DNA of 64,000 bases, taken from contig JAJEKV010000035.1 in NCBI GenBank assembly GCA_021234155.1, positions 5,222,224-5,286,223 of the forward strand, written 5' to 3'. Below, in pieces: positions 18,864-57,084 of this stretch. A program made the translations under genes and the position numbers. This DNA comes from Isoetes taiwanensis (Eukaryota > Streptophyta > Lycopodiopsida > Isoetales > Isoetaceae). The notes below the pieces were generated by a model. That model was given only the letters and a program-made list of their open reading frames with translations. It was not told where the DNA came from and ran no database searches. Numbering within the stretch: position 1 is the stretch's first letter; each line of letters begins with the position of its first letter.

Positions 18864-20182
18864 TGTAATATGCAGCATTATAAAATGCTCATTAATGAAC
18901 TAACAGTGTTTTCCACATCCACATTTACTACAAGATCAACAATTATTGTAAAACTAGAAAAAGAGCCCAGTGTTGTTTCCATCAGGAAGCAATTGCATAA
19001 AGATATCTCACTATCCTTTGAATAGATATAACCTATATCCATACTCCATATTTGAAACCTACCATTGAATGTGAAGGCATAGCATCATTTTTATACAACA
19101 TATTTGCCAAATGGGTAAATGTCTTAGAATGAGGTATTCATATTCACATGGAATATAGCCTAATTCTGCAAGCTTCTAGCTACAGGAAATACACTAATAC
19201 AATGATGAGTTTTAACGTGGCAATTGCATATCTAAAAGAGTTTTAGCATGGGAAATGCATATTTGTCATGCATATCTAGTCTACTTGTATAATATAAAAT
19301 AACTATGCATCGCTACGCCATCTCTTAGATTTGCCATGAATGATATATGGTAGCACACATGACAAGTTTGTAAATAATAGTCATGCATGGCAATGTAAAC
19401 TTTTTAACCATGCACAAGCAATTAAGTGGTTTGCCAAGAGAACAATTTTTGGTAGCCCAAATTTGGTGGCTTGATGAATATGTGCCAAGAGAACATTATA
19501 GTCCAATTTGGTTCTTTGATGAAGATGTGCCAAGAGAACAATTGTAGCCCAATTTGGTTGTTTGATGAAGATGGCCCAACTAAAATAACTAAGTTTTCGA
19601 TAACATAGTCAATATCTTCATAATAATTATTATATAGTGGCAAAGCTTTGCAAAATTATGATGTTGTAATATTAACACAGTTATGTACGTGGGAGGAGAA
19701 GTATGGCCTGTCTTTTTCATGCAGCTTGTAAAGTTGCACCAGGTGATTCCATACCTTTCAAACCTGGATCCAAGGATGGATTGGAAAAGTTTTATAAGAT
19801 CTGTATTCTCACAATCTAGAAAAACAGATGGTTGTAGAATGTTTATGCTTCAAATTTATGTTGCCGAGTGAAAAACATCATGTTTTTTTATATTTTCGTT
19901 GAGCATTTACTTTAGCCACCATACCATTTCTTTTTGAAGACAAAGGTGGTTAAAACCTGGGCAACATTTGAAGGCATACTTGCAAGCACTATAATGATAT
20001 TATGAAACACTATCTATTCAAACCTAGCAGTAGAATACCTTATGGACATACATTATATAACTCTCTTGGACCACCAAATGCTCCCAGTCTGCAAATGGAA
20101 AACTTTTTATTCGCAAATGGAAATATGGCGGCACATGAAGACAATGAAAATGAATGGAAAATTCATATTGAGAAAATAATAG
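18864..20182. other. Spacer with a three-unit tandem repeat
   Basis: No gene is supported. 19430-19575 holds three imperfect units of about 46-55 bp, each starting TGCCAAGAGAACA and ending TTTGATGAAGATG. The rest is AT-rich. Confidence 0.6.
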
Positions 20183-20526
20183 AAGGAAGGAAGGAAGGAA
20201 GGAAGGAAGGCAGGAAGGAAGGAAGGAAGGAAGGAAGGAAGGAAGGAAGGAAGGAAGGAAGGAAGGAAGGGAGGAAGGAAGGAAGGAAGGAAGGAAGGAA
20301 GGAAGGAAGGAAGGAAGGAAGGAAGGAAGGAAGGAAGGGGAAGGAAGGAAGGAAGGAAGGAAGGAAGGAAGGAAGGAAGGAAGGAAGGAAGGAAGGAAGG
20401 AAGGAAGGAAGGAAGGAAGGAAGGAAGGAAGGGAAGGAAGGAAGGAAGGAAGGAAGGAAGGAAGGAAGGAAGGAAGGAAGGAAGGAAGGAAGGAAGGAAG
20501 GAAGGAAGGAAGGAAGGAAGGAAGGA
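20183..20526. repeat. (GGAA)n microsatellite, about 340 bp
   Basis: Nearly pure GGAA repeat with only four small interruptions (GGCAGG near 20210, GGGAGG near 20270, GGGGAAGG near 20338, GGGAAGG near 20431). It starts at 'ataatagaaggaagg' and ends where the LINE 3' end begins (GGAAGGATATTTTAACGTCC). Read on the minus strand, it is the (TTCC)n tail of that LINE. The Glu-Gly-Arg-Lys reading of this DNA is not a protein gene. Confidence 0.97.
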
Positions 20527-39068: not shown

Positions 39069-39467
39069 GTAGATAGGTAGATAGGTAGATAGGTAGATAG
39101 GTACGATGAAGCTTACAAACCATGAAGCTCTCAATGTATAGTGCTCTTTGTATTTAATGCATTCTGCTATTCAATATAGCAAGTTTATAGAGATGTGCCA
39201 GATTTACAATACTTGGATTTTTCAATACAATATCACAAACCATTCTCATTTCTTGCTAAGATGGAGCATAGTTATTGCTTGTCATAAGTATCTTGTTCAT
39301 TTGAGTTATTAGGACGAATGTTTTGAGTGTCTTATCAGGTTCGTCGGAAATAAGTCCAGCTTATATGATTTTCGAAGCGGAAAAATCTTATCCCTTTTTA
39401 ACAACTTGATTGCCAAAGTAGAAATGTTTTGTGTAGTCTGCCCTGGCAACATGTGGAAATTAGCAAT
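38361..39467. other. Block missing from unit 2, with (GATA)n microsatellite
   Basis: No gene. 39008-39100 is GATA repeat passing into GGTAGATA variants. 38905-38955 is a GTGAGT-type repeat. The block is bordered by CAAT on both sides (38357-38360 and 39464-39467), and a single CAAT remains at the unit 2 junction (49751-49754). Confidence 0.8.
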
Positions 39468-39699
39468 CCAGTAATAAGTAATATCATCATTTTGTTAGTG
39501 GCAGGAATTTCATGCTTTGAATAATTGTGAAAGTGAGATTCAAAGGACATCAAGCCCTGCACATAGAAGAATGGCTATTCACAATGAAGCAATTATTGAT
39601 GAAGAGACTACAATTGATGCCAACCCACTTAGGGAGTAGATGCGATGTTTATCTCCTCTTTTGTAAGGTGGATAGTAGGAAAACTCCACATTGTCATAG

Positions 39700-39939
39700 C
39701 TAATTCTTTAGTAATAGTAACTTCCATCGCACCGCATTTCTTATTCTCACTAAGACTTGAACCTTGTCATGGAGATGGGCATAGATGATGAAAGTTCGAC
39801 ACATATAAGGAGGTCCAAATCCCCGCAACAAAACGAGACTTGGAATGTTTAATGGCCCTGCAACTCCAAAGGCAAAACTGTTGTATAAATGTGAGCAGTT
39901 CCTATTCATTTTAAGCTTACCACACATTGTGTTTTGCAA
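39700..39939 (-). CDS. Hypothetical open frame, unit 1 copy
   Basis: 79 codons (LNIPSLVLLRGFGPPYMCRT, FIIYAHLHDKVQVLVRIRNA). No family recognised. The unit 2 copy at 49987-50226 differs by one residue in the part compared. It could be part of an old transposon or chance. Confidence 0.2.
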   Translation of the reverse strand: MQNTMCGKLKMNRNCSHLYNSFAFGVAGPLNIPSLVLLRGFGPPYMCRTFIIYAHLHDKVQVLVRIRNAVRWKLLLLKN

Positions 39940-40138
39940 TACATTATTGTGCAGTCACAGTGTTTGTCTTGAAAGTGGCTTACTTTTGGTAATTATAATG
40001 TCATGTTGTTTATGTGAAACCTCGACCTTGGCATAAATTGTGAGTAGCTAGAGGTTCTATTAGGCGCCATCTTTTTCATGAGCAAGTTTTCAATGCAACT
40101 TGGATTTGAACTGTTGGAGGGTAAAGGCTGGAGGCTCA

Positions 40139-40429
40139 TTAGAACTGAAAAAGCCTTTGTAAGTTCAGTTTTGTTTGCAAAAAAACAATCTTATACACAT
40201 TTGGAGTTTCGCATGTATAAGCTTGCAGCACATTGACCCACTCTTCATTTTCAAGTGTCTTCATGCTTTGTTGCTGTGTTTTTTGTAGAATAAAAGTGGA
40301 CTGGCACTCTTTTCTATAGATTTGCCTGAGTTGAAAGGCCATGAGAGTGGCCATTATTCTAAAATCATGCATACCAACATCTGTATCTTCTTGTAAGCAT
40401 GCAAGCAAATCGCCCGTTAGATGAGGCAC
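40139..40429 (-). CDS. Hypothetical open frame, unit 1 copy
   Basis: 96 codons (HLTGDLLACLQEDTDVGMHD, FRIMATLMAFQLRQIYRKEC). The frame stays open a little further upstream (HIRWHAHNFIERFV) before meeting stops. The unit 2 copy at 50426-50713 has an in-frame 3-bp loss (EDTDVGMHD to EGTDGMHD) plus single substitutions. Family unknown. Confidence 0.25.
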   Translation of the reverse strand: MPHLTGDLLACLQEDTDVGMHDFRIMATLMAFQLRQIYRKECQSTFILQKTQQQSMKTLENEEWVNVLQAYTCETPNVYKIVFLQTKLNLQRLFQF

Positions 40430-41234
40430 AAATCTTTCTATAAAATTATGGGCATGCCATCTTATATGGTTCAGAAGCTCAGAAGGAATTACAATAAAGC
40501 TTTAAAATCGTCGAGAGAATAGGACTTGAGCTTTCCCTGGAAAATTTTCAATGAGTCTATTGAGCTTCAAATTGCCCTTCCCTCCTCCCGTAGATCTCGA
40601 GCTTCTCTCGTTGCTCAAATCTTTATTGGAGCTATGTGATTTGTTATCACCTTGTCTGGGTGAGCTTTTCTAGTCTGCAAAATATGGGCTTAGTAGGAGT
40701 TGTTATATTTAGGGGTAGCGTTGTTGATGTGCCCAACATGCCAAGCATGAGAAGTTGTGCATATCAAGGCAGACTTCTTAGATTAACCTTTGATTTCTAA
40801 TTAGTAAATGTTCTAGTGGGGCCTTTTTTTTCCTAATACCTTGGGTTAGTGTTCTATTCTAAGAAGATATTGTATTATTGAAAATATTATGAATTTGTCA
40901 AACAACGTTTAATCCATTATTGAAAATATTCCGTCCTAATCTATGAATTTGTCACACAACTATTATTCCAATGACATCCAACTTCATATGTCAATTTCAT
41001 ATGACAAAGTCAATTATTAAATGTGTCACCATGTTTTCTACTCCAGATACACTTGCCTTCACTTGTCAAAGGCAAATAGCAAACGTAGAGGGAAACTAGG
41101 AATGCTATTCGTTGCTTTGCAGAAGTATGCAAGTCAATCTCATATTTTAATATCGACGTATATATAACTGCAATAATCTTGCAACAATCAAATTTGGTAT
41201 TTTTGTAACATATGATTTATTAAGGTTAATAGGT

Positions 41235-41264
41235 GGTATTCGTATACCAAACCGTATGAATACC
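41235..41264. other. Inverted repeat at the left side of the Rep-bearing segment
   Basis: GGTATTCGTA (41235-41244) pairs with TATGAATACC (41255-41264) with one G-T wobble and a 10-nt loop. It is followed by GAGGGTTCTAACGCCTC (41273-41289), which can form a short T-arm-like hairpin. Confidence 0.6.
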
Positions 41265-41639
41265 CGAAAGACGAGGGTTCTAACGCCTCTGAGATCCATT
41301 TTTTTCCCTAGGTCGGGGGGAGGCGCGTCCTTCCCGGGCGCTCCAGCACTTGGCGCTGCTTGCTAAATCGGGAGGATGGGCGGGGAAAGGGATCGGCATG
41401 TTGGGTTATCTTCCTGCGAGGGCTTACAGTTTCGATTTCGTCTTCCTGCAGGTGAGTTAGCGCCTGGTCTGTGTGTTTTACCTCTTTCGGTTCTGTTGCT
41501 TGAGATGTCTTTAAGAAGGGAGGCCAGGAGGGCAAGGGCTGGGCATGCAAATCTTCCATCCGGTTCGGCGGCCTCTATGGCACGCTCATCTCACCTGAGG
41601 CTAGATTCTATCCCTTTGCGGATACTAGCCCGAGAAATG

Positions 41640-42500
41640 GGATTCAATTGATGTTTACATTACTTTAGGCCTTTCACGGACAAGATGTTCCCAAATCTTT
41701 CTATGATGCCCTTGTCGATTTTGTGACTCCAAATGTCTAGCGAGGCGAGCCTTGGAAAGGGGCTCCTCGGTGATCACTTACATGTTCGGGGGTGTTTTGA
41801 GAGGTCGATTGAAAGTCCTAAGGCCTTGAATGATGCTATCAAAAAGACTTCAATCGGTCTCCCAAGCTTCTTTGGCGTGGTGTTGGTCTGCAAAGCTTTG
41901 AAAAATAATAGGCTGCATTGTTTTGAGGGAATGGTAGGATATTGTATGAAAGATTTTGGAAAAGTTCACTATAGTTGTCATATGCACAATATCTCTGAAT
42001 CTATGATTGAAAAAGGTAAGGATCTTTATTTAAGGTGGGGTGCAGGTGATACTAAAGGGTTGTGTGTCTTGGATAATAGGAATCTTTTAAATAAGGCATG
42101 CCATTACGTGATGTATCATGGGAGTCGACCTTTACTTTGTGCAGGATGTTGAGGTCTGGAAAATACACATTAAGTAGTTCTTGGATTATTCCTCATAATT
42201 CTGCCCATGTGAATGAACACAGAGTGCGGGCAGCATGGAGAGTGTTGCTTAATCCTGCTGGCTGCCTGCCTTCTGACATAAGAACTATTATCTTTGGTTA
42301 TCCTTCAGGGTTTGTTCCTGTTGAGAGGAATGGGCCTGGTAGAAGGCGCTATTGGGATGATGCCATTCCAGCAGACGAACAGGACTCAAACTTTGAGGAT
42401 CTGCATGAGAGAACCTTTAGCTCTGAGGCGGATATCCCTGATGTTGGTGCAGACTATATCCCTGTGTACACAGGGGACCACACCATGGCAGTGGGTTGAT
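41640..42500 (+). pseudogene. HUH-endonuclease Rep-like gene (replitron/CRESS type), frameshifted
   Basis: In the frame from 41733, residues 14-23 read DHLHVRGCFE. HLH at 41775-41783 matches the HUH (motif II) metal site of Rep proteins. Residues 66-74 read GMVGYCMKD, which matches motif III with catalytic Tyr (41940-41942) and Lys three positions on. Between them is SPKALNDAIKKTSIGLPSFF. The frame ends at 42150, and the protein continues in another frame from about 42135 (RMLRSGKYTLSSSWIIPHNS, HVNEHRVRAAWRVLLNP). Upstream, DSIDVYITLGLS at 41641 may be motif I in a third frame. At least two frameshifts and stops make it inactive. HUH enzymes nick single strands and become covalently joined to DNA through the tyrosine. 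The local sequence is GC-richer than its surroundings. No helicase domain is seen. Confidence 0.6.
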
Positions 42501-42609
42501 TTCTTTCATGTGGTTCCTTCTTGTACAGTGTATAGTCTTTTGTATTTATCTGCTGTTGTATTTCTCTGGTTTATGGTTGGTACAGATTTGTGCAGGGTCT
42601 TCTTGAGAA

Positions 42610-43143
42610 ATGGATGGAAATGGCGACACCATGGATGAGACCCCACCTGTGGTTGTTAGTATTGGTCCTGATATCATCAGTTCTACCATTGATGATTCTC
42701 ATCCAAACCCGCATGCTTATCCTCCTGAAAGTGAGGAAGTCTTTACTGCTGAGGAATTTGTGACTAGCATTGTGCAGGTTGGTACGGAGGCGCACAGGAT
42801 TGCAGCCTCATTGAGGATCCTGAGAAGGCAGATAGGAAGCTTCTATGTTGCTATAAATTCTGCCTTATCTGCTGTGCAATGGGACCGTCTTGGTGTGCCG
42901 GAATCAGAGCTGCATGTGTTGCGCTCACACATGAGCTTGGCAAGGGCTCTCCTGACACAGGAGATACGCCCGGCTTCGATCATCCATCGCATGCTAGCTC
43001 TGGGCCGACCAGGAATTGAGAAGCTTTGTGTTGAACTTGCATCTGGTTATCTGGTTATGTGTGATGAACTTATATGTTGTTGTGATCTGAACTATTTCTG
43101 CCATGTGGCTTCTGTATGCTGGTATTTCAATGTAAATATTTGA
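42610..43143 (+). CDS. Unidentified 177-codon open frame beside the Rep-like gene
   Basis: Opens MDGNGDTMDETPPVVVSIGP, then an acidic/proline-rich stretch and a helical body (EEFVTSIVQVGTEAHRIAAS, LRILRRQIGSFYVAINSALS, RSHMSLARALLTQEIRPASI). The first ~155 codons lack stops and have the same GC-rich character as the Rep-like gene 110 bp upstream; the last part (CCCDLNYFCHVASVCWYFNV) looks like read-through. It is a candidate second protein of the same mobile element. Family unknown. Confidence 0.4.
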   Translation: MDGNGDTMDETPPVVVSIGPDIISSTIDDSHPNPHAYPPESEEVFTAEEFVTSIVQVGTEAHRIAASLRILRRQIGSFYVAINSALSAVQWDRLGVPESELHVLRSHMSLARALLTQEIRPASIIHRMLALGRPGIEKLCVELASGYLVMCDELICCCDLNYFCHVASVCWYFNVNI

Positions 43144-43225
43144 CATTTGTTTGCTTGATAATTGGACACCTGTTTCCTGTTTATATTTCTGACAGTGTTT
43201 ATTCCAGTGGGGCATTGGCCCCCTT

Positions 43226-43262
43226 GCATAAGGGAGCTCCATTAGTTGGAGCTCTCTTATGC
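43226..43262. other. Strong hairpin, 16-bp stem
   Basis: GCATAAGGGAGCTCCA (43226-43241) pairs with TGGAGCTCTCTTATGC (43247-43262) with one wobble. The loop is TTAGT. It lies about 80 bp after the second open frame. Confidence 0.9.
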
Positions 43263-43266
43263 TCGG

Positions 43267-43309
43267 CTGAGCTGTGGTTACTTGCTGGGGTTCGATTCCC
43301 CAGGCTCAG
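43267..43309 (+). other. tRNA-like T-arm plus acceptor-like stem
   Basis: CTGGGG-TTCGATT-CCCCAG (43285-43303) is a canonical T-arm with the TTCGA loop. It is enclosed by CTGAGC (43267-43272) pairing with GCTCAG (43304-43309). The D-arm and anticodon arm are absent, so it is not a tRNA gene. It directly follows the 16-bp hairpin. Confidence 0.75.
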
Positions 43310-43319
43310 GCCTGATATT

Positions 43320-43856
43320 TGATCTGCAGGTATAACAGTATTCTTTGGAGAATACGCCATGGTTTTATTTATAGTTGCATGTATTTTTGTTCAAGTCAAA
43401 CAAGCCAGGTATGACTTGTAAAGGACTTGAAATGGAGGGCAGGGATGCTCTTAGAGAGCATCTTGACTTTTGGACCATTGTCTTTTTTTTTTAAATGGCT
43501 GTCATCTGACGGCCCAAAATCCATAATCCATAATAGTAACAATGCCCATCAATGGTTTGGTTGATCTTTTGGGAGAGAATGTCTTATTCCTAGATAATGT
43601 CGTTAGTTGAATGCTTTGAATCATTAGATATGAAGGCATTTATTGTTGGAATAGGGACATTGTGTTTACCAAGCTGTAACAACTCGAAATTGAAAAGTAA
43701 CTGCAAACATGATGTTTGCAATGCATGAATATAAAGACTTTGAATGAAGGATTTATTATTTCTGGATAGAAAATATAACGAATATACAACATGAGTTTGA
43801 TACTGGCCCTCATAGCTCACTGATTCCAGATTACCCTGCACAAAGTTTGTGGTTAG
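43320..43856. other. Spacer after the Rep-bearing segment
   Basis: AT-rich, with no recognisable gene or repeat partner in the window. It ends where the sequence shared with unit 2 resumes (43857). Confidence 0.4.
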
Positions 43857-44530
43857 ACTATGGGCAAATTTTTGTGGGGACAAACATTGAAACAATAGAC
43901 AATACATAATGCAACAACAATAGACTCTTCAACTACTTACCGGTTTTACATGATCAGCAACTGTAGCGCCCATGCTCTCATTCAAAAGTATTTGTGGTGC
44001 AGGTTGCACTTTAATGCTGAAATGTCCAAGGTCCCGGCAATGGAACCAAAAATGTTAAAGAGGATTTCCCTCCCTTTAACACAAAACTCTTAGAAACCTT
44101 GGACCTTGGCCCTTCATTGAGGCAAATAAGAGAGTAATAATAATGAGCTATTTCCTTTTGCTTTACCATGTTACCGCACTGCATCAAATTGGTTTTTGGT
44201 CTTATCAGTCTGAAAATTGACTAAAACTTCTATCTGCAGCTGAAGTTCCGCTATACAGAAGCATACAAAACAGTAAAGCTCCAGGCAATATGAATGTAAA
44301 GCTCAAGGACAATCATGACTTGCTAGTAAATGTCCAAATAATTTACTCTCTATCTATCTGATATTTGAAACTATAGTGGCTTCACAGTTGAAGATATCAA
44401 GCTTATTATGAGAAGCATCCAATGTTTTGACATTTCCCCGATAAAATGAGGTGAAAGTGCCTGTTACAAATTTCCAGAAAAATTTCAAATCGGTTAATAG
44501 AGACAAGATTAAGCCTAGATAATTTTGGAC

Positions 44531-45284
44531 GATACGATTCATGCATATTTGGGAAGTTGCAATAACATAGAATCATAGAATCCACAATGAAATAATAGAG
44601 CACCAGACTAAAGAAATTTTATTCATGCACAATTGATATAGCAACACCATTAACCACCCAACCGGATCCACTGGGTTATGGCAAAACACAAGTGCTATGG
44701 CAAATAAAAGGCTCTGGCATCTATCTTATTGGCTTTCCAGACTAATCTAGCTACTCCAAGTAGCCACACATCATAAAAACAATTTCAAATCTGTGAAGTC
44801 GCTATGGCAGTGATCTGTGACCTCTTGTCACACTTTTCAACCATTACTCCCTCATACGAATGAACTAGGATATGTGCCGCTCCAATTCGGAAACTAGACT
44901 CCGAGCCGGTTCCAAAGAGGTAAAGGTCGCTTCAATCGGAGCTCTGGTTGCAGAGATATGGCCAACTGAAGTTTCGGTTCTATTTATAGAGCTCTCTGCG
45001 ACTTTAGCCTTTTTTAGCATGCAGTTGCCTTTTTCTCAAAATATCTCATTGCCTTTAATTAGATTATATGACTTATCATATGGATATTATCTATGATCTT
45101 TTTCTCAACCAATAACCATCCCAATGATAGTGCCTCGACCCCTTCCATAAAGTTCAATGGTGCTATGTTATCCTATGCCCCTTTATACTATTAGGTGACC
45201 TTAGGAATAACATTTACATAGTATTTGCCATAATTCCAATAACCCATTCGTCGTGGACCACTCCTCCGTGCTTGCTCCATATCA
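44531..45284 (-). mobile_element. Solo LTR of the non-autonomous LTR element
   Basis: Matches the LTRs at 29898-30656 and 31911-32631. Its left part keeps the 'gttgcaataacatagaatcatagaat' segment and 'aacacaagtgctatgg' found only in the left LTR. Its right part has AAGAGGTAAAGGTC found only in the right LTR. A left/right hybrid is the expected product of LTR-LTR recombination. The right flank AATATACAG equals the flank of the full element. The left flank does not, because the duplication junction falls at base 2 of the LTR. Confidence 0.85.
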
Positions 45285-47943: not shown

Positions 47944-49080
47944 ATGTAGCATAATAACAGGGGGTTTTAGGGGGATTTGATATGGATGTAAAAATAACAA
48001 TTTCTAAAACCATAGGCTATATATCCCTAAAACAATTGAATGGATTGTTAAAAAAAAGGGGAGGAATTCAAGATAGAAGATAATCACATTAGCCTGGGTA
48101 TATTGCTTATAGTCTTCTTATTAAGACATTGCGTTATTTATTTTGATAGAGGTTCGAGCCCCTGTATTTCATATTCTAAAATCTTGGGGATTTGATATGG
48201 ATGTAAAAATAACAACTCATAAAACCATAGACCATATATCCCTAAAACAATTGAATGGATTAATATAAAAATTTTTTTTTGACTCAAGATAGAAAATAAT
48301 TACATTAGCTCATTGGGTATATTGATTATAGTCGTCTTATTAAGACATTGAGTTGTTTTAGTAGATGTTCGAGCCCCTATATTTCATATTCTAAAACCTT
48401 AGGCAAAGCCGTATAAAGGTTCAATATTCCCTCAAAACCTTAGGCGAACTCGTATTTCATATTTCAAAATCATAGGCATCTCCAATCATAAATGACTATA
48501 AGCGAAACGAGAGGTGCCCAGAGGCCCCAACATACGATCTGGGTCGTAGGATCGACGGGTGTGGTAGTCCAGGTGCACCTCATTTAGAATAATATGTAGC
48601 ATAATAACAGGGGGTTCCAAGGGGATTTAATATGGATGTCAAAATAACAATTCCTAAAACCATAGGCCATGTATCCCTAAAATAATTGAATGGATTGTTA
48701 TAAAAAAAAAACATAGATTCAAAATAAAAAATAATCACATTAGCTTGTTGGGTACATTGGTTATAGTCGTCTTATTAAGACATTGAGTTATCTTGGTAGA
48801 GGTTCGAGCCCTTTACTTCATATTCTAAATTCTTAGGCAAAGCCGTATAGAGGTTCAATATTCCCTCAAAACCTGTATTTCATACATCAAAATCATAGGC
48901 ACCTCCAATCATAAATGACCATAAGCGAAACGAGAGGTGCCTAGAGGCCCCAACATACGATCTGGGTGATAGGATCGACGGTTCCGATGACTATGGTAGT
49001 CCAGGGTGCACCTCGTTTAGAATATACAGTATAATAACAGAGGGGGTTCCAAGGGGATTTTATATGGATGCACCTCGTTT
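47944..49080 (+). mobile_element. Tandem array of tRNA-like SINEs
   Basis: Three main copies and a fourth start: about 47944-48180, 48182-48586, 48587-49018 and 49019-49080. Each begins near AATAACAGGGGGTT, followed by GGGGATTTGATATGGATGTA. The A-box-like TTAGCTYRTTGGGTA and B-box AGGTTCGAGCC (48149, 48366 and 48799 areas) lie about 50 bp apart. The copies end GGTGCACCTCRTTTAGAATA. The first copy lacks its 3' half. The array sits 0.5 kb upstream of the HMA gene start. Confidence 0.75.
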
Positions 49081-49375: not shown

Positions 49376-49986
49376 CTTTGGTGACAAAAAGATATTAGTG
49401 ACTTGTAATCCAAAGTCATAGAATTACATTGTCTCCACGATATTGAGCAAAATGAAAAAAATCATGAGCAATAAACCATGTAAAATACAACATTTGCTAT
49501 TGGTAATTTATTTCATGCATGCTCTACAAACCCTCATTAGCTGATAACTAATTACTTGATATGCTTTACATAAATCACAAACTTTGGAATATCATAACGT
49601 CAAGGTGAACCTCATCTTCAAGGTCATGCCCATTTAAATGAAATGCGGAAACTACAATGAAGACTACAAGTGGCCATACCAAACTAAGGACCTCATACTA
49701 CTTCAATCTCATCACAAACATCCATTTAGAACTTCATTTACACTCATTATCAATCCAGTAATAAGTAATATCATCATTTTGTTAGTGGCAGGAATTTCAT
49801 GCTTTGAATAATTGTGAAAGTGAGATTCAAAGGACATCAAGCCATGCACATAGAAGAATGGCTATTCACAATGAAGCAATTATTGATGAAGAGACTACAA
49901 TTGATGCCAACCCACTTAGGGAGTAGATGCGATGTTTATCTCCTCGTTTGTAAGGTGGATAGTAGGAAAACTCCACATTGTCATAG

Positions 49987-50226
49987 CTAATTCTTTAGTA
50001 ATAGTAACTTCCATCGCACCGCATTTCTTATTCTCACTAAGACTTGAACCTTGTCATGGAGATGGGCATAGATGATGAAAGTTCGACACATATAAGGAGG
50101 TCCAAATCCCCGCAACAAAACGAGACTTGGAATGTTTAATGGCCCTGCAACTCCAAAGGCAGAACTGTTGTATAAATGTGAGCAGTTCCTATTCATTTTA
50201 AGCTTACCACACATTGTGTTTTGCAA
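49987..50226 (-). CDS. Hypothetical open frame, unit 2 copy
   Basis: Duplicate of 39700-39939 with one Phe-to-Ser change. No family recognised. Confidence 0.2.
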   Translation of the reverse strand: MQNTMCGKLKMNRNCSHLYNSSAFGVAGPLNIPSLVLLRGFGPPYMCRTFIIYAHLHDKVQVLVRIRNAVRWKLLLLKN

Positions 50227-50425
50227 TACATTATTGTGCAGTCACAGTGTTTGTCTTGAAAGTGGCTTACTTTTGGTAATTATAATGTCATGTTGTTTAT
50301 GTGAAACCTCGACCTTGGCATAAATTGTGAGTAGCTAGAGGTTCTATTAGGCGCCATCTTTTTCATGAGCAAGTTTTCAATGCAACTTGGATTTGAACTG
50401 TTGGAGGGTAAAGGCTGGAGGCTCA

Positions 50426-50713
50426 TTAGAACTGAAAAAGCCTTTGTAAGTTCAGTTTTGTTTGCAAAAAAACAATCTTATACACATTTGGAGTTTCGCA
50501 TGTATAAGCTTGCAGCACATTGACCCACTCTTCATTTTCAAGTATCTTCATGCTTTGTTGCTGTGTTTTTTGTAGAATAAAAGTGGACTGGCACTCTTTT
50601 CTATAGATTTGCCTGAGTTGAAAGGCCATGAGAGTGGCCATTATTCTAAAATCATGCATACCATCTGTACCTTCTTGTAAGCATGCAAGCAGATCGCCTG
50701 TTAGATGAGGCAC
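50426..50713 (-). CDS. Hypothetical open frame, unit 2 copy
   Basis: Duplicate of 40139-40429. It has lost one codon relative to unit 1 with the frame kept. No family recognised. Confidence 0.25.
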   Translation of the reverse strand: MPHLTGDLLACLQEGTDGMHDFRIMATLMAFQLRQIYRKECQSTFILQKTQQQSMKILENEEWVNVLQAYTCETPNVYKIVFLQTKLNLQRLFQF

Positions 50714-51948
50714 AAATCTTTCTATAAAATTATGGGCATGCCATCTTATATGGTTCAGAAGCTCAAAAGGAACAATAAAGCTTTAAAATCGTCGAGAGAA
50801 TAGGACTTGAGCTTTCCCTGGAAAATTTTCAATGAGTCTATTGAGCTTCAAATTGCCCTTCCCTCCTCCCGTAGATCTCGAGCTTCTCTCGTTGCTCAAA
50901 TGTTTATTGGAGCTATGTGATTTGTTATCACCTTGTCTGGGTGAGCTTTTCTGGTCTGCAAAATATGGGCTTAATAGGAATTGTTAGAGATTTTTTGGTC
51001 TGCAAAATATGGGCTTAGTAGGAGTTGTTATATTTAGGGGTAGCGTTGTTGATGTGCCCAACATGCCAAGCATGAGAAGTTGTGCAACTATGGGCAAAAT
51101 GTTTGTGGGGACAAACATTGAAACAATAGACAATACATAATGCAACAACAATAGACTCTTCAACTACTTACCGGTTTTACATGATCAGCAACTGTAGCGC
51201 CCATGCTCTCATTCAAAAGTATTTGTGGTGCAGGTTGCACTTTAATGCTGAAATGTCCAAGGTCCCGGCAATGGAACCAAAAATGTTAAAGAGGATTTCC
51301 CTCCCTTTAACACAAAACTCTTAGAAACCTTGGACCTTGGCCCTTCATTGAGGCAAATAAGAGAGTAATAATAATGAGCTATTTCCTTTTGCTTTACCAT
51401 GTTACCGCACTGCATCAAATTGGTTTTTGGTCTTATCAGTCTGAAAATTGACTAAAACTTCTATCTGCAGCAGAAGTTCCGCTATACAGAAGCATACAAA
51501 ACAGTAAAGCTCCAGGCAATATGAATGTAAAGCTCAAGGACAATCATGACTTGCTAGTAAATGTCCAAATAATTTACTCTCTATCTATCTGATATTTGAA
51601 ACTATAGTGGCTTCACAGTTGAAGATATCAAGCTTATTATGAGAAGCATCCAATGTTTTGACATTTCCCCGATAAAATGAGGTGGAAGTGCCTGTTACAA
51701 ATTTCCAGAAAAATTTCAGATCGGTTAATAGAGACAAGATTAAGCCTAGATAATTTTGGACGTATCATGCAGATCATTTGAAGAAATTAATGATAAAAAA
51801 TTAGTGTTGAGCCTTTCTCCTTGGTTCATGCCACAACCTTTAAGCAGTCTTGCAAACGAACTATCCCTGTTCTTTTCCATTTCGCTACCCGTGCCCCAGT
51901 CCTTGGTTTTTTCTACGCAGCAACACTTATCTCCAATTCTTTGTGAAC

Positions 51949-52299: not shown

Positions 52300-53166
52300 A
52301 TAGCTGGCTTCCTAAGATCCTTTTCATTATCAGAGGAATACCTCAGTGCTTCAGAAACCTTGTAGTATTCCAGTTTTATAAATATTTGTCATTAACATAT
52401 ATGCTGAAGCATCTTTATAATCATGTCTTAAAACAGATTCAAATGCATGCTTTCCAAGCACCACATTTTTCCACTTTCTACAAGCACCCAAAACTGCTTT
52501 CCATATCAACAGATCTGGTTCAAAAGGCATGTTCTTTATTACTTCTACTGCATCATCCAAATAATTGGACCGACCAAAGAGATCAACAATACAAGTATAA
52601 TGCTCTATACTAGGGGTGAGCATATAATGCGCATGCATCAACCAGTTGTCAACAAGACCAGCATGGTTGCAAGCATTAAGAATGGAGAGAAAGGTGATAC
52701 TGTCTGCTTGTAAACATCTCTTCTGCATTATTTTAAAGAGATCAAAGACGCGTTGGGCATCTCCATGGTAAGCGTATCCTGCTAGCAGTGGATTCTATAT
52801 TACCAAAGTCTTCCCACTCATTGAATCGAAAACTTGCTCAGCATCAGCCATGCTTCCACATTTACCGTAGAATCCAACCAGACATCCTGCTACAAATGGC
52901 TCATTCTGGAGTCCAGCACTGCAAATTTGAATATGGATCTTTTTTCCGGTTTCCAGGGCCACTAGACTGCCGCACGCCTTCAGTGCAGCAACATATGTTT
53001 GGGCATCTGGCACAAAACCTTCGCCTTGCATGCACAAGAAGAATTCCAAAGCCAAAATGCTCTCCTCACCCTCAGCATATCCAGATATCATAGCATTCCA
53101 CGACACTAAATCATGATGTAGCATCTCCTCAAAGACCCCACGAGCATGTATCATGCTTCCACAGTT
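52300..53166 (-). pseudogene. PPR protein pseudogene (PLS class), downstream part
   Basis: From the LINE junction it reads MIHARGVFEEMLHHDLVSWN, AMISGYAEGEESILALEFFL, PDAQTYVAALKACGSLVALE, then a premature TAG at 52797-52795 where VIWNPLLAGYA is expected (TGG to TAG). In the same frame come FDLFKIMQKRCLQADSITFL, CNHAGLVDNW and an E-motif-like PDLLIWKAVLGACRKWKNVV. The frame ends at 52351, and the usual LRKPAITVGIQK-like continuation lies in another frame. PPR proteins bind organellar RNA, and the PLS/E class is usually linked to C-to-U editing. The nonsense codon, the frameshift and the 6.36-kb LINE mean this copy is dead. Confidence 0.88.
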
Positions 53167-53270: not shown

Positions 53271-56200
53271 TCAATCATGGAGAGGCCTTTGTAAATCCCG
53301 ACTATTATCGTCTTCAGCAAACCAATGACACTTGAAGAATATGTAAAATCCTTGAATTCTGCCAATCCTGTCGAGAGCTTTATTGTAGTGGCGACCGAAT
53401 TTTCGATGATGGGCTAAAGCCATTAGGGCCACCTCCATATTGAAAATGTTTTTCAGCTTATTCAGAGAAAGCTCTTGTCGGCCCAAAGCAATGTCACATC
53501 TATGTTTCCATATAGCCCACATGGCTATGTTGACAAGAGATGCCGAAATAATTTTCCCATCTGATACCATCAATATTCCTGGCCATTGTAACATATCAAT
53601 ACCTATAAGAGGACATACCCAATCCCAGAAGTTCTGTACTTTGGGACAAAAGAATAAGTGTGCGAGGGTTTCTGTGCTATTGCAACCAAGAGGGCACCTA
53701 TTGGTAAGAAGGATCCCCCTTTGAAAAAGCCAATCCATAGTGCTGAGTCCCCCTTGCAATGTTAACCATCTAAAGAACTGCAACCTCTTAGAGCATAGTG
53801 TATTCCATGAATTGGCTAGTAATTTTCTAGCTTGAATAATTCCTACTCCTAGTCTGTCAGCAGCCTTTTCAGGGGATCCTGGACAAAGAAGACTGTAGAG
53901 AGTACTGACAACATATTTTTCTTTCTGCTCACAACTCCGTCGGTCATTGGGGCCATCCTTACCTGAGAGGACCTCTAAAGTACACCGAATATCCCGAAAG
54001 ATCTTTCTGTCTCCCTCGCCTGCATTATGCACCTTGTTCCTAAAGCGGGACCAGGAGAGCCATCTGTCACCATCCCATAAATGCCCCACCTTAGTGACTC
54101 CTGATTGCCTCCATTTAGTGAAAATTTGGGGGTGTGTAAGAGCAAGGGGTAGGCCATTTCTCGACCATATCTTCGTATTCCAAAAAATACTCAGCTTACC
54201 AGCTTCCTTGGGTGCATCCATAGGCTCGAATAGTTTTTGAACTTCCAACCAGGCTTCAAGTAGCTTTCGCATAATCGGAGATGTGCCTGGGGCTATTTTA
54301 TAGCTAAAGAAAAAGGAACCAATTTCATCACGGGGTAATGATGGCTTACCTTTTAGTGTACAACGCTGGAGCCAATACATGACAAAGTGCAAAGCGAGGG
54401 AGGTGATACCATGTAATGCTCTCCAGACAAACTTTCCAGCAAGTACCTGTGCTTGGGTTGTCAAATTTTTGCATCCCATTCCGCCATCACTCTTGTCAAG
54501 ACACATTTCCGTCCAGGCCACTTTATGCCTACCACCCTTCCATATAAATTTCCTGATAATGGTTTGGATTTGATTGTAGACACCCTTCTGAGCAACAATA
54601 GCTGAAGAGTAATAGACATGGGAAGCAGCTAGAATAGCCTTAGCAACTGCTATCCTTCCAGCAACGGAGAGACCTTTGGCTGACCATAGGTTGATTTTTT
54701 TCCTTAGATGATCCAGGATGGGTGTCCATATACCTTTTAAGTTTTCAGAGAGGAATAAGGGCAAACCAAGCAGCTTCGTAGCCTTATCCTTCAGAACTTG
54801 AAAGCCCAAGTTTTTCACCCTAGGATCAATGTCGGTCTCAAAGGGCCATACAACAGCACACTTGGATACATTGAGCTCTATCCCCGATATCTTTCCAAAT
54901 GTACCTAGCACTTCATGGAAGGACTCAAAGCTGGAATCATCAAATCTAAGAAGAATGAAAGTATCATCTGCATATTGCATAAGTGTGAGCTTGTCCTGGG
55001 ATTCTGGAAGCTGAAGACCAGAGAGAGTGCCCTCGGAAACTTTAAATTCCACCATTCTGGAAAGTAAATTGGCAATGATTAAGAAAAGATAGGGAGCCAG
55101 GGGGCAACCTTGTCTAATTCCTTTTCTTAGCTCAAACAGGCCGTATATCGTCCCATTGATAAGAACTGAAGCTGAAGCAAGCTTGTTCATACCCAAAGAG
55201 AGCTCCACAAATGAGGTACTAAAACCCATATGGAGCATAATATCTTGAAGACCCCTCCAACGAAGGGTATCATAAGCTTTACGGAAATCCATCTTAACAA
55301 AAACACAATTTTGTTTAGAAAGCTTACACCAGTGCAGGCCCTCTCTAACTGCAATGAAGTTATCCAGAATATGTCTCCCTGGTAAGAAAGCCGTTTGTTC
55401 ATTCCCAATAACCTTACCGAGGATAGGCTTTAGTCGGTTGGCAATTATTTTCATAATAACCTTGTAGAGTACATTTGTCAAGGCAATGGGCCTCCATTCA
55501 TTCAGCTTCTGTGGCCGGGCAACCTTAGGAATCAAGGAAATAAAACCTGTCGATAGAGCAGGGTGCAGATAGCGGGCTTCCCATGCCCCCCTTACTGCCT
55601 TAATGAATGCTGGCCCAAGTAGATCCCAGAATTCAACATAGAACTCTGGAGGGAGACCATCAGGACCAGGGGACTTACCTGAAGCAAGAGAGGAGAGAGT
55701 CCTGAAGATTTCATCATCCCCTAAATCACACATTAAATTCGTATTGTCAGCGTGCGAGACTTTGGTCCTCCAATGTATCTTTGTCAACCAGTTTTGGAGT
55801 ACTGATTCATAATCATTTGGGAGAGGGTTCTCCTTGAACATTTTCTGAAAGCTTTCCCTAACATATGAACCAATCCCATCAATAGAATCAAACTTATTCT
55901 GTTGGTCATCAGTAATAGATGTGATACTATTCTCAGCCAAACGGGCTCCTGCAAGCCTGAAGAAGTGTTTGGAATTTTCATGATCTGCTTCTGTATACCA
56001 CTTAGTTTTGGATCTTACTGCAGCCCCTCTAGCTTCTTCTTCTTCAATAGCTTTTGCTTTGCTCTCAAGATCAGCTTCCAAAAAGTGGAGGGTAACATTG
56101 AAGGGGTCCATTAGGAAATCTTGTTTGGTGATTCTAAGCTGATCATAAATATCATTTTTGGCTTTTCTGAACACCTGAGCCCTATCCTGCCCCCATTTTT

Positions 56201-57084
56201 TAACCCAAACCTTGATGTCTTTAATCTCCTGAATCCAGGCCTTCATGCTAGGCACCCCATCCACTTGATGTCGGTTAGCAAGAAAGACCCGAAAAGAGTC
56301 ACAGAATGAGGACTTTCCGAGTAATGAAGTGTTAAATTTGAACGGCACGTTTCCACTTCTCCGGACCGAGGGAGCATCTTCAAATATGAGTTTTTGTGGG
56401 ACGTGATCTGATTGGGTGAAGGCCAAGTCCCCTTCAACAAAGCATCTATCCAAGAATCTAGCTGTTCTGTTAGCTAGATAGAATCTGTCTAGTAAACAAT
56501 AAACACGATCATGCCCTTTCTGCTTATTGGACCAGGAGAATGAGGTATTTGAAGGAGGGATCAAAGTAAATCCCACACTATCAAGTAGAGAGTTCCATGC
56601 TGCATCCTCCTCTGCAGAGAGATTTCTATGAAGTCCAACCTTCTGGTCCCATATATCGGTCATGTTCAAGTCCCCCCCCATAAGCCAGTTTTCAACCTCC
56701 TGCCGGGCGATCCAAATTTCGATCTCTTTCCACAAAATGGCCCTTTCTGCAGGTTTATTAGAAGCATAAATATTGAGAAGGCCCCATCTACAATCCTCTG
56801 TTTCGAGAACAATGGCCTGCCACCTACCATTTGTACCTTTATGCTGGAATTTTACTTTTTATCCTTTCCAGAGTAGAGCAGTACCACCCTTTGTACCTAA
56901 AGCTGGGCAGGTAAATGAGTCGTATTGCCCCCCTACCCAAGTACCAAGGGAACTAGCCTCGAAATCTGGTAGTCTGTGCTCTTGAATGAGGATGATGTCT
57001 GCAGCCATAGACCTTATTGCCAAGGACTCTGGCACGTTTTAGTGTCCCCTTGATCCCCCTTAGATTCCAAGATATCACTTTCAT
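53271..57084 (-). pseudogene. LINE ORF2: endonuclease, reverse transcriptase, zf-RVT
   Basis: Start ATG at 57084 (MKVISWNLRGIKG). Endonuclease words follow: ADIILIQEHRL, the GGDLN box at about 56675 and TQSDHVPQKL. The uninterrupted frame 56735-53271 (1154 codons) carries the linker, RT (KSPGPDGLPPEFYVEFWD, DFRKAYDTLRW, GIRQGCPLAPYLF, MQYADDTFILL), the KGLSVAGRIAVAKAIL thumb and a C-terminal zf-RVT region (LQFFRWLTLQGGLSTMDWLF, CPLGCNSTETLAHLFFC). Two faults lie in the endonuclease part: an in-frame TAA at 56861-56859 and a frameshift near 57030. RT itself looks intact, so the copy is young but cannot make a full ORF2 product. Confidence 0.93.

Follow-up and report, generated by a model that had tools for sequence, protein, structure and literature searches.

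Within the window, i.e. the whole stretch of 64,000 nucleotides from the quillwort Isoetes taiwanensis that was analysed, positions 41173–43534 of the + strand hold a whole, decayed replitron copy, the last base being uncertain by 2–3 positions. It belongs to a Replitron family that encodes two proteins and is present in many copies in this plant, the assembly of which is put at 1658.30 Mb, with 204 scaffolds plus 909 unplaced contigs (PMC8566536). From 5′ to 3′, the copy carries a pseudogene of the replitron transposase (Rep), a companion gene (ORF2) and a folded 3′ module. The GC-richer island described in an earlier note on this DNA, which was made from the sequence alone, is real, with GC contents of 0.445 and 0.459 in the 2 kb of 41001–43000 against 0.370 before and 0.386 after. 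Elsewhere in the window, an open frame of 1195 aa (53271–56858, − strand), in which reverse transcriptase and zf-RVT domains are recognised, represents a LINE-type element and is adjoined by a frame with PPR repeats (52351–52794); a long GAAG tandem array of about 86 units occupies 20182–20526, and 47971–49070 contains nested tandem repeats (215 and 435 bp) that also match near 5.9, 32.6 and 45.3 kb.

Rep gene, element borders and related copies

The Rep pseudogene (41505–42499, +) has kept its HUH and single-tyrosine motifs amid stops and frameshifts. The motifs DHLHV (from 41772) and GYCMKD (from 41937), taken in the earlier note for the HUH site and the catalytic-tyrosine motif of a Rep-like protein, do share one open frame (41727–42152, +), which matches the Pfam domain Replitron_HUH (PF21859) with an E-value of 2.6e-9 and 37.9 bits, above the curated cut-off of 28.5. 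GYCMKD holds one tyrosine; in an alignment of 11 Reps (A2), this residue (Y169) and K172 are invariant and predicted to be catalytic. The C-terminal half lies in a second open part (42095–42499, +) with a weak match to Replitron_C (PF21860; E 0.027, 15.3 bits, below the cut-off of 27). A frameshift near 42150 separates the two frames and stops lie farther upstream, the N-terminal part being spread over other, stop-containing frames, so that the decay by frameshifts proposed earlier is confirmed; the 57-aa N-terminal piece has no Pfam match. Among the A2 Reps, PF21859 is matched at E ≤1 by all 11 (best E 5.2e-22) and PF21860 by nine, weakly and under the cut-off (best E 0.0098). Since no helicase family was found in Pfam at E ≤1 in any of the 11, the element is assigned to replitrons rather than to CRESS elements, and the earlier reading as a helicase-free member of the single-tyrosine replitron/CRESS group is thereby narrowed down, through PF21859, to replitrons, an assignment that we regard as virtually certain. 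The presence of such a copy in a land plant is no novelty, although the earlier note had thought that possible, since replitrons are already recorded in lycophytes by a 2023 review (PMC10741241).

Querying the genome with Rep gave at least 150 matches (150 scored of 3014 first-look candidates). Twenty Rep-selected loci were taken out, one being the window copy itself; of the 19 others, 13 match it at about 88–94% over the same stretch, from 41173 to ~43530, and begin and end alike, while the remaining six are more distant. The 5′ end reads ATAATC in the window subfamily (41173–41178, +) and ATAATG in the other subfamilies displayed, and the exact 42-bp 5′ end is found at 35 places in the genome (none for the reversed control). 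At the 3′ ends of the copies, short units containing CATAATAC or a similar motif occur singly or several times; in the window, copy comparison places there two direct repeats of ATAAT (43523–43534, +), the same as the ATAAT of the 5′ end. Both ends of the element thus carry an ATAAT direct repeat, and there are no terminal inverted repeats.

The unoccupied state of the site is preserved in five paralogues, in which the flanks 40762–41172 and 43540–43856 are separated by 7 bp and the element is absent (in one of the five, the left flank was matched only in part). The join reads ACTACA-ATGGTAA-CAATG in all five; the filled site reads ACTGCA, then ATAATC to CCATAAT, then AGTAACAATG. Comparison of empty and filled sites shows an insertion, with either a 2-bp AT target duplication or none, both being compatible with the five empty sites; for replitrons in general, the review gives target duplications of 2–8 bp (PMC10741241). 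The limits of the element are set by the five empty sites together with the 35 exact 5′ ends. They had previously been placed at 41230–43320: an element is indeed present, but it extends farther, from 41173 to about 43534.

Two further arrangements were noted. Segment 39459–44531 of the window is duplicated at 49746–51762 with about 95–99% identity, the second copy lacking 40762–43856; its sequence corresponds to 39459–40761 plus 43857–44531, joined without a target duplication. This copy was considered as an empty site and rejected as such; because 40762–41172 adjoins 43540–43856 without the element in the five other paralogues, the missing part was probably lost by deletion. In the genome, at C1018 of G000 (about 40.007–40.012 Mb), two close replitron copies adjoin each other in opposite orientation (loci L022 and L025).

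The folded 3′ module

Of the hairpins that the earlier note had placed near both sides of the element, those on the 3′ side are well supported and the one on the 5′ side is not: folded as DNA, region 43205–43320 reaches −34.1 kcal/mol (z −7.4, none of 200 shuffles as good), whereas 41173–41290 is not beyond chance (z −0.17). The module (+ strand) comprises two hairpins within 43209–43262, namely 43209–43222 and a long one at 43226–43262, followed by a tRNA-like unit (43267–43309). The outer stem of this unit has 7 pairs and its linker 12 nt, and its 5-bp arm (43286–43302) is closed by the loop TTCGATT. Farther on, still on the + strand, DNA folding yields an 8-bp hairpin (43444–43462) and a near-terminal hairpin (43497–43514), the region 43440–43540 having a z of −2.45 with 6 of 200 shuffles as good.

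The module was detected by nhmmer in 51 of 60 distinct loci, L048 having it in part, and a second T-arm unit occurs farther on in many copies. It was not found by this search in the other nine (L013, L018, L055, L058, L061, L065, L068, L069 and L070). Among these, L055, L058, L061, L065, L069 and L070 form a subfamily without the tRNA-like unit that has other strong hairpins instead (z −5.6 at that place in L065), and several of its copies show a comparable near-terminal hairpin, GCCGTC..GACGGC, ahead of the element end. That the unit is part of the element follows from its placement in the genome: an exact 25-mer of it occurs at 13 places (the reversed control at none), 12 of which have an exact replitron 5′ end 1.45–2.15 kb upstream in the same orientation. 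Two copies with short spacing between 5′ end and unit, at 1.53 and 1.45 kb (C90:622826-624377 and C1079:5986109-5987582 of G000), suggest internally deleted, non-autonomous forms.

Conservation of the fold was assessed by covariation, for a structure named by hand from single-sequence folds and then counted on those same sequences. Counted on the plain alignment, the structure scores 0.135 for covariation against 0.091 for shuffled alignments (0/500 as high), the best slid version of the structure giving 0.088. Alignment cells with double changes number 47 against 22.8 expected from shuffles (0/500); the corresponding count of pairs is weaker (13 versus 9.3, 21/500), and further pair types are not above shuffles (233/500). 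After realignment to the model, a procedure biased toward the structure, the score is 0.227 versus 0.123, and both sides change in 11 of the 16 pairs of the long hairpin. In the outer stem of the tRNA-like unit, the outermost pair fails in 31 of 46 sequences and the innermost in 37 of 46, so that this stem has 5 pairs in most copies. An RNAalifold structure of alignment A3 (17 pairs, −8.35 kcal/mol) is different and weak, the stems of unequal length being misaligned there, and was not retained.

The conserved folded 3′ element may be tRNA-like. Judged from sequence and predicted fold, it is quite possible, and is tentatively proposed, that the module acts as RNA. A competing explanation, in which it acts as single-stranded DNA, as a structure for Rep recognition or replication, is also possible, if slightly less likely. 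The module folds well as DNA, covariation does not discriminate DNA from RNA, and some of the nine loci without the module have other strong hairpins in its place. A function as DNA would also fit the results of tRNA searches: ARAGORN found no tRNA gene (window 43100–43500 and 27 loci), nor did Rfam at gathering scores, the best tRNA-like Rfam match of the unit being mascRNA with 17.6 bits for a cut-off of 42.5, which is therefore not called. However, the T-loop form TTCRANY is kept in 43 of the 45 rows of A3, which a DNA hairpin does not require, and the stem lengths of the window unit, 7 and 5, are those of tRNA.

The companion gene ORF2 and a splice-like layout

ORF2 (42610–43019, +) belongs to no known family and is frameshifted near its C-terminus in the window, where its open frame over-runs to 43143. 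The C-terminus of its relatives (SGxxxN and a stop) sits in another frame, ending at 43019. Because of this frameshift, the window frame of 178 aa is too long compared with the 130–140 aa of intact relatives, and its last part is a decay artefact. The earlier proposal that this second frame belongs to the Rep element thus holds for the gene but not for the tail to 43143.

Linkage was examined from both genes. Starting from Rep (20 loci from the Rep query and 20 chosen for a long Rep frame, i.e. 36 distinct copies after removal of 4 repeats), a downstream ORF2 match on the same strand was found in 33 of the 36; in L068, one of the three copies without a match, the start of ORF2 is present and then gives way to other sequence. 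Starting from ORF2, the query of which gave at least 152 matches in the genome (150 scored of 1535 first-look candidates), Rep lies upstream in 30 of 30 selected loci, six of which are also in the Rep-selected set. Replitron copies share ancestry, and such counts are accordingly non-independent. The search for linked copies suggested in the earlier note thus finds Rep recurrently accompanied by the second frame as well as by the folded region on the 3′ side. With the PF21859 match above its cut-off, neither of the two outcomes that this note had named as refuting it was observed.

Intact ORF2 proteins are acidic (pI 4.7–5.4); in three copies that were inspected, the negative charge is concentrated N-terminally, within residues 1–45. 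The median dN/dS is 0.21 for ORF2 (17 intact sequences, of which L034 and L035 are identical; 37 of 136 pairs with dS of 0.05–1.5) and 0.12 for Rep (ten intact Reps; 11 of 45 pairs), values biased downwards by the choice of sequences with open frames; as judged from these ratios, ORF2 is under purifying selection. Additionally, Rep and ORF2 distances are correlated across 12 copies (r 0.85, with 0/2000 permutations as high). Database searches with ORF2 returned nothing better than E 0.16 for 17 members in Pfam and, for three members, nothing better than 0.17 in PHROGs and 0.06 in NCBIfam. The best PDB profile match, to RecA fusions (E 0.0043, 24 residues), is taken as chance since no stretch is significant by itself. 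The ORF2 protein may be new; among the literature matches listed, which do not include the founding description (Craig 2023), neither titles nor abstract openings mention a second ORF in replitrons.

ORF2 is a real companion gene, and very probably a working part of the replitron family. That it could instead be a hitch-hiker captured from the host or a foreign source, with no role in transposition, appears improbable: the absence of a significant family match would suit such an origin, as would the three of 36 copies without an ORF2 match, which suggest that some copies may manage without it, but selection on ORF2, its divergence in step with Rep across distant subfamilies and the adjoining Rep at every ORF2-selected locus all speak against it.

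Signals resembling splice sites surround Rep. In the window, a putative 5′ splice donor, GCAG/GTGAGT (41452–41453, +), lies 53 nt upstream of the Rep start, and a putative 3′ splice acceptor, TTGTGCAG (42594–42595, +), lies 14 nt upstream of the ORF2 start. In 36 of 49 copies, the sequence TGCAG is present no more than 25 nt upstream of the ORF2 start (controls: 54 of 1421 windows). Likewise, 18 of 26 Rep starts have GTRAG no more than 80 nt upstream (controls: 59 of 312 windows within Rep), the donor being missing before the other eight. From these counts, in which related copies are non-independent, 12 of 70 loci were excluded beforehand (ten duplicate places and two near-identical loci), and further loci missing from them are those without a recognisable start. 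As the donor signal recurs at 35 to 71 nt and the acceptor signal mostly at 5 to 14 nt in different subfamilies, the layout suggests that Rep is located within an intron, the removal of which would permit translation of ORF2. We give even chances to a splice switch between Rep and ORF2 of the kind predicted from these signals.

Comparison with known systems and proposed mechanism

The family agrees with replitrons (PF21859, PF21860) in its HUH Rep with one catalytic tyrosine and no helicase, in having short direct repeats, and no inverted ones, at its termini and in its lycophyte host. As to copy-and-paste movement, another replitron trait, the relevant observation is the high copy number. Set against Pfam and the review rather than the founding description, the family adds a conserved second gene, a splice-like layout and a 3′ folded module. 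Helitrons, too, have a rolling-circle HUH transposase, no terminal inverted repeats and a 3′ hairpin, but their Rep is fused to a helicase and has two tyrosines, whereas the present family has no helicase (11 members) and one motif tyrosine. Reps of CRESS DNA viruses and plasmids share the HUH and single-tyrosine YxxK motifs and possess a superfamily 3 helicase domain, absent here from the 11 members. The chance that the element is an integrated CRESS DNA virus or plasmid relative instead of a transposon is negligible, in that the resemblance of the YCxKD motif to CRESS Reps is outweighed by the Pfam assignment to Replitron_HUH, the transposon ends, empty sites and genomic copies (at least 150), and the lack of any relative in IMG/VR or a phage collection (the latter not of plant viruses). 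Searches for viral and prokaryotic relatives gave none; the best PHROG match of Rep is to an unknown family over 36 residues (E 0.003). As concerns the 3′ unit, mascRNA/menRNA (RF01684) likewise consists of an outer stem and a T-arm without an anticodon arm (Rfam alignment); in contrast, the present unit falls short of the Rfam cut-off and is carried by a transposon, just downstream of a long hairpin, and its processing is putative.

The explanation preferred for the whole, which is held as fairly probable, is a two-protein replitron with cutting at terminal repeats, a splice switch, ORF2 as a helper and a 3′ module acting on the transcript. Rep, a single-tyrosine nickase, would cut the terminal ATAAT direct repeats, aided by the near-terminal hairpin, and would copy the element via single-stranded DNA into an AT-containing target. 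Rep and ORF2 would share one promoter; the unspliced transcript would yield Rep, and splicing between the donor in the leader and the acceptor immediately upstream of ORF2 would remove Rep and lead to ORF2. The small acidic ORF2 protein would most likely help Rep, as an oligomer or as a single-strand or host-factor adaptor, judging from its size, charge and linkage, and the 3′ module would most likely work on the 3′ part of the transcript. A more elaborate version, with Rep encoded in an intron, a splice switch from transposase to accessory protein and a transcript 3′ end shaped by tRNA-processing enzymes at the tRNA-like unit, is considered unlikely.

By its Rep and its ends, the element in the window falls within a kind of transposon that was described recently, in a host group already known for it. 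What would set the quillwort replitron apart as a variant of that kind is its companion gene, together with its splice-like layout and 3′ module. To our knowledge, little is known of what a replitron needs beyond Rep; with a selected companion gene of no known family, nearly always beside Rep, these needs become testable.
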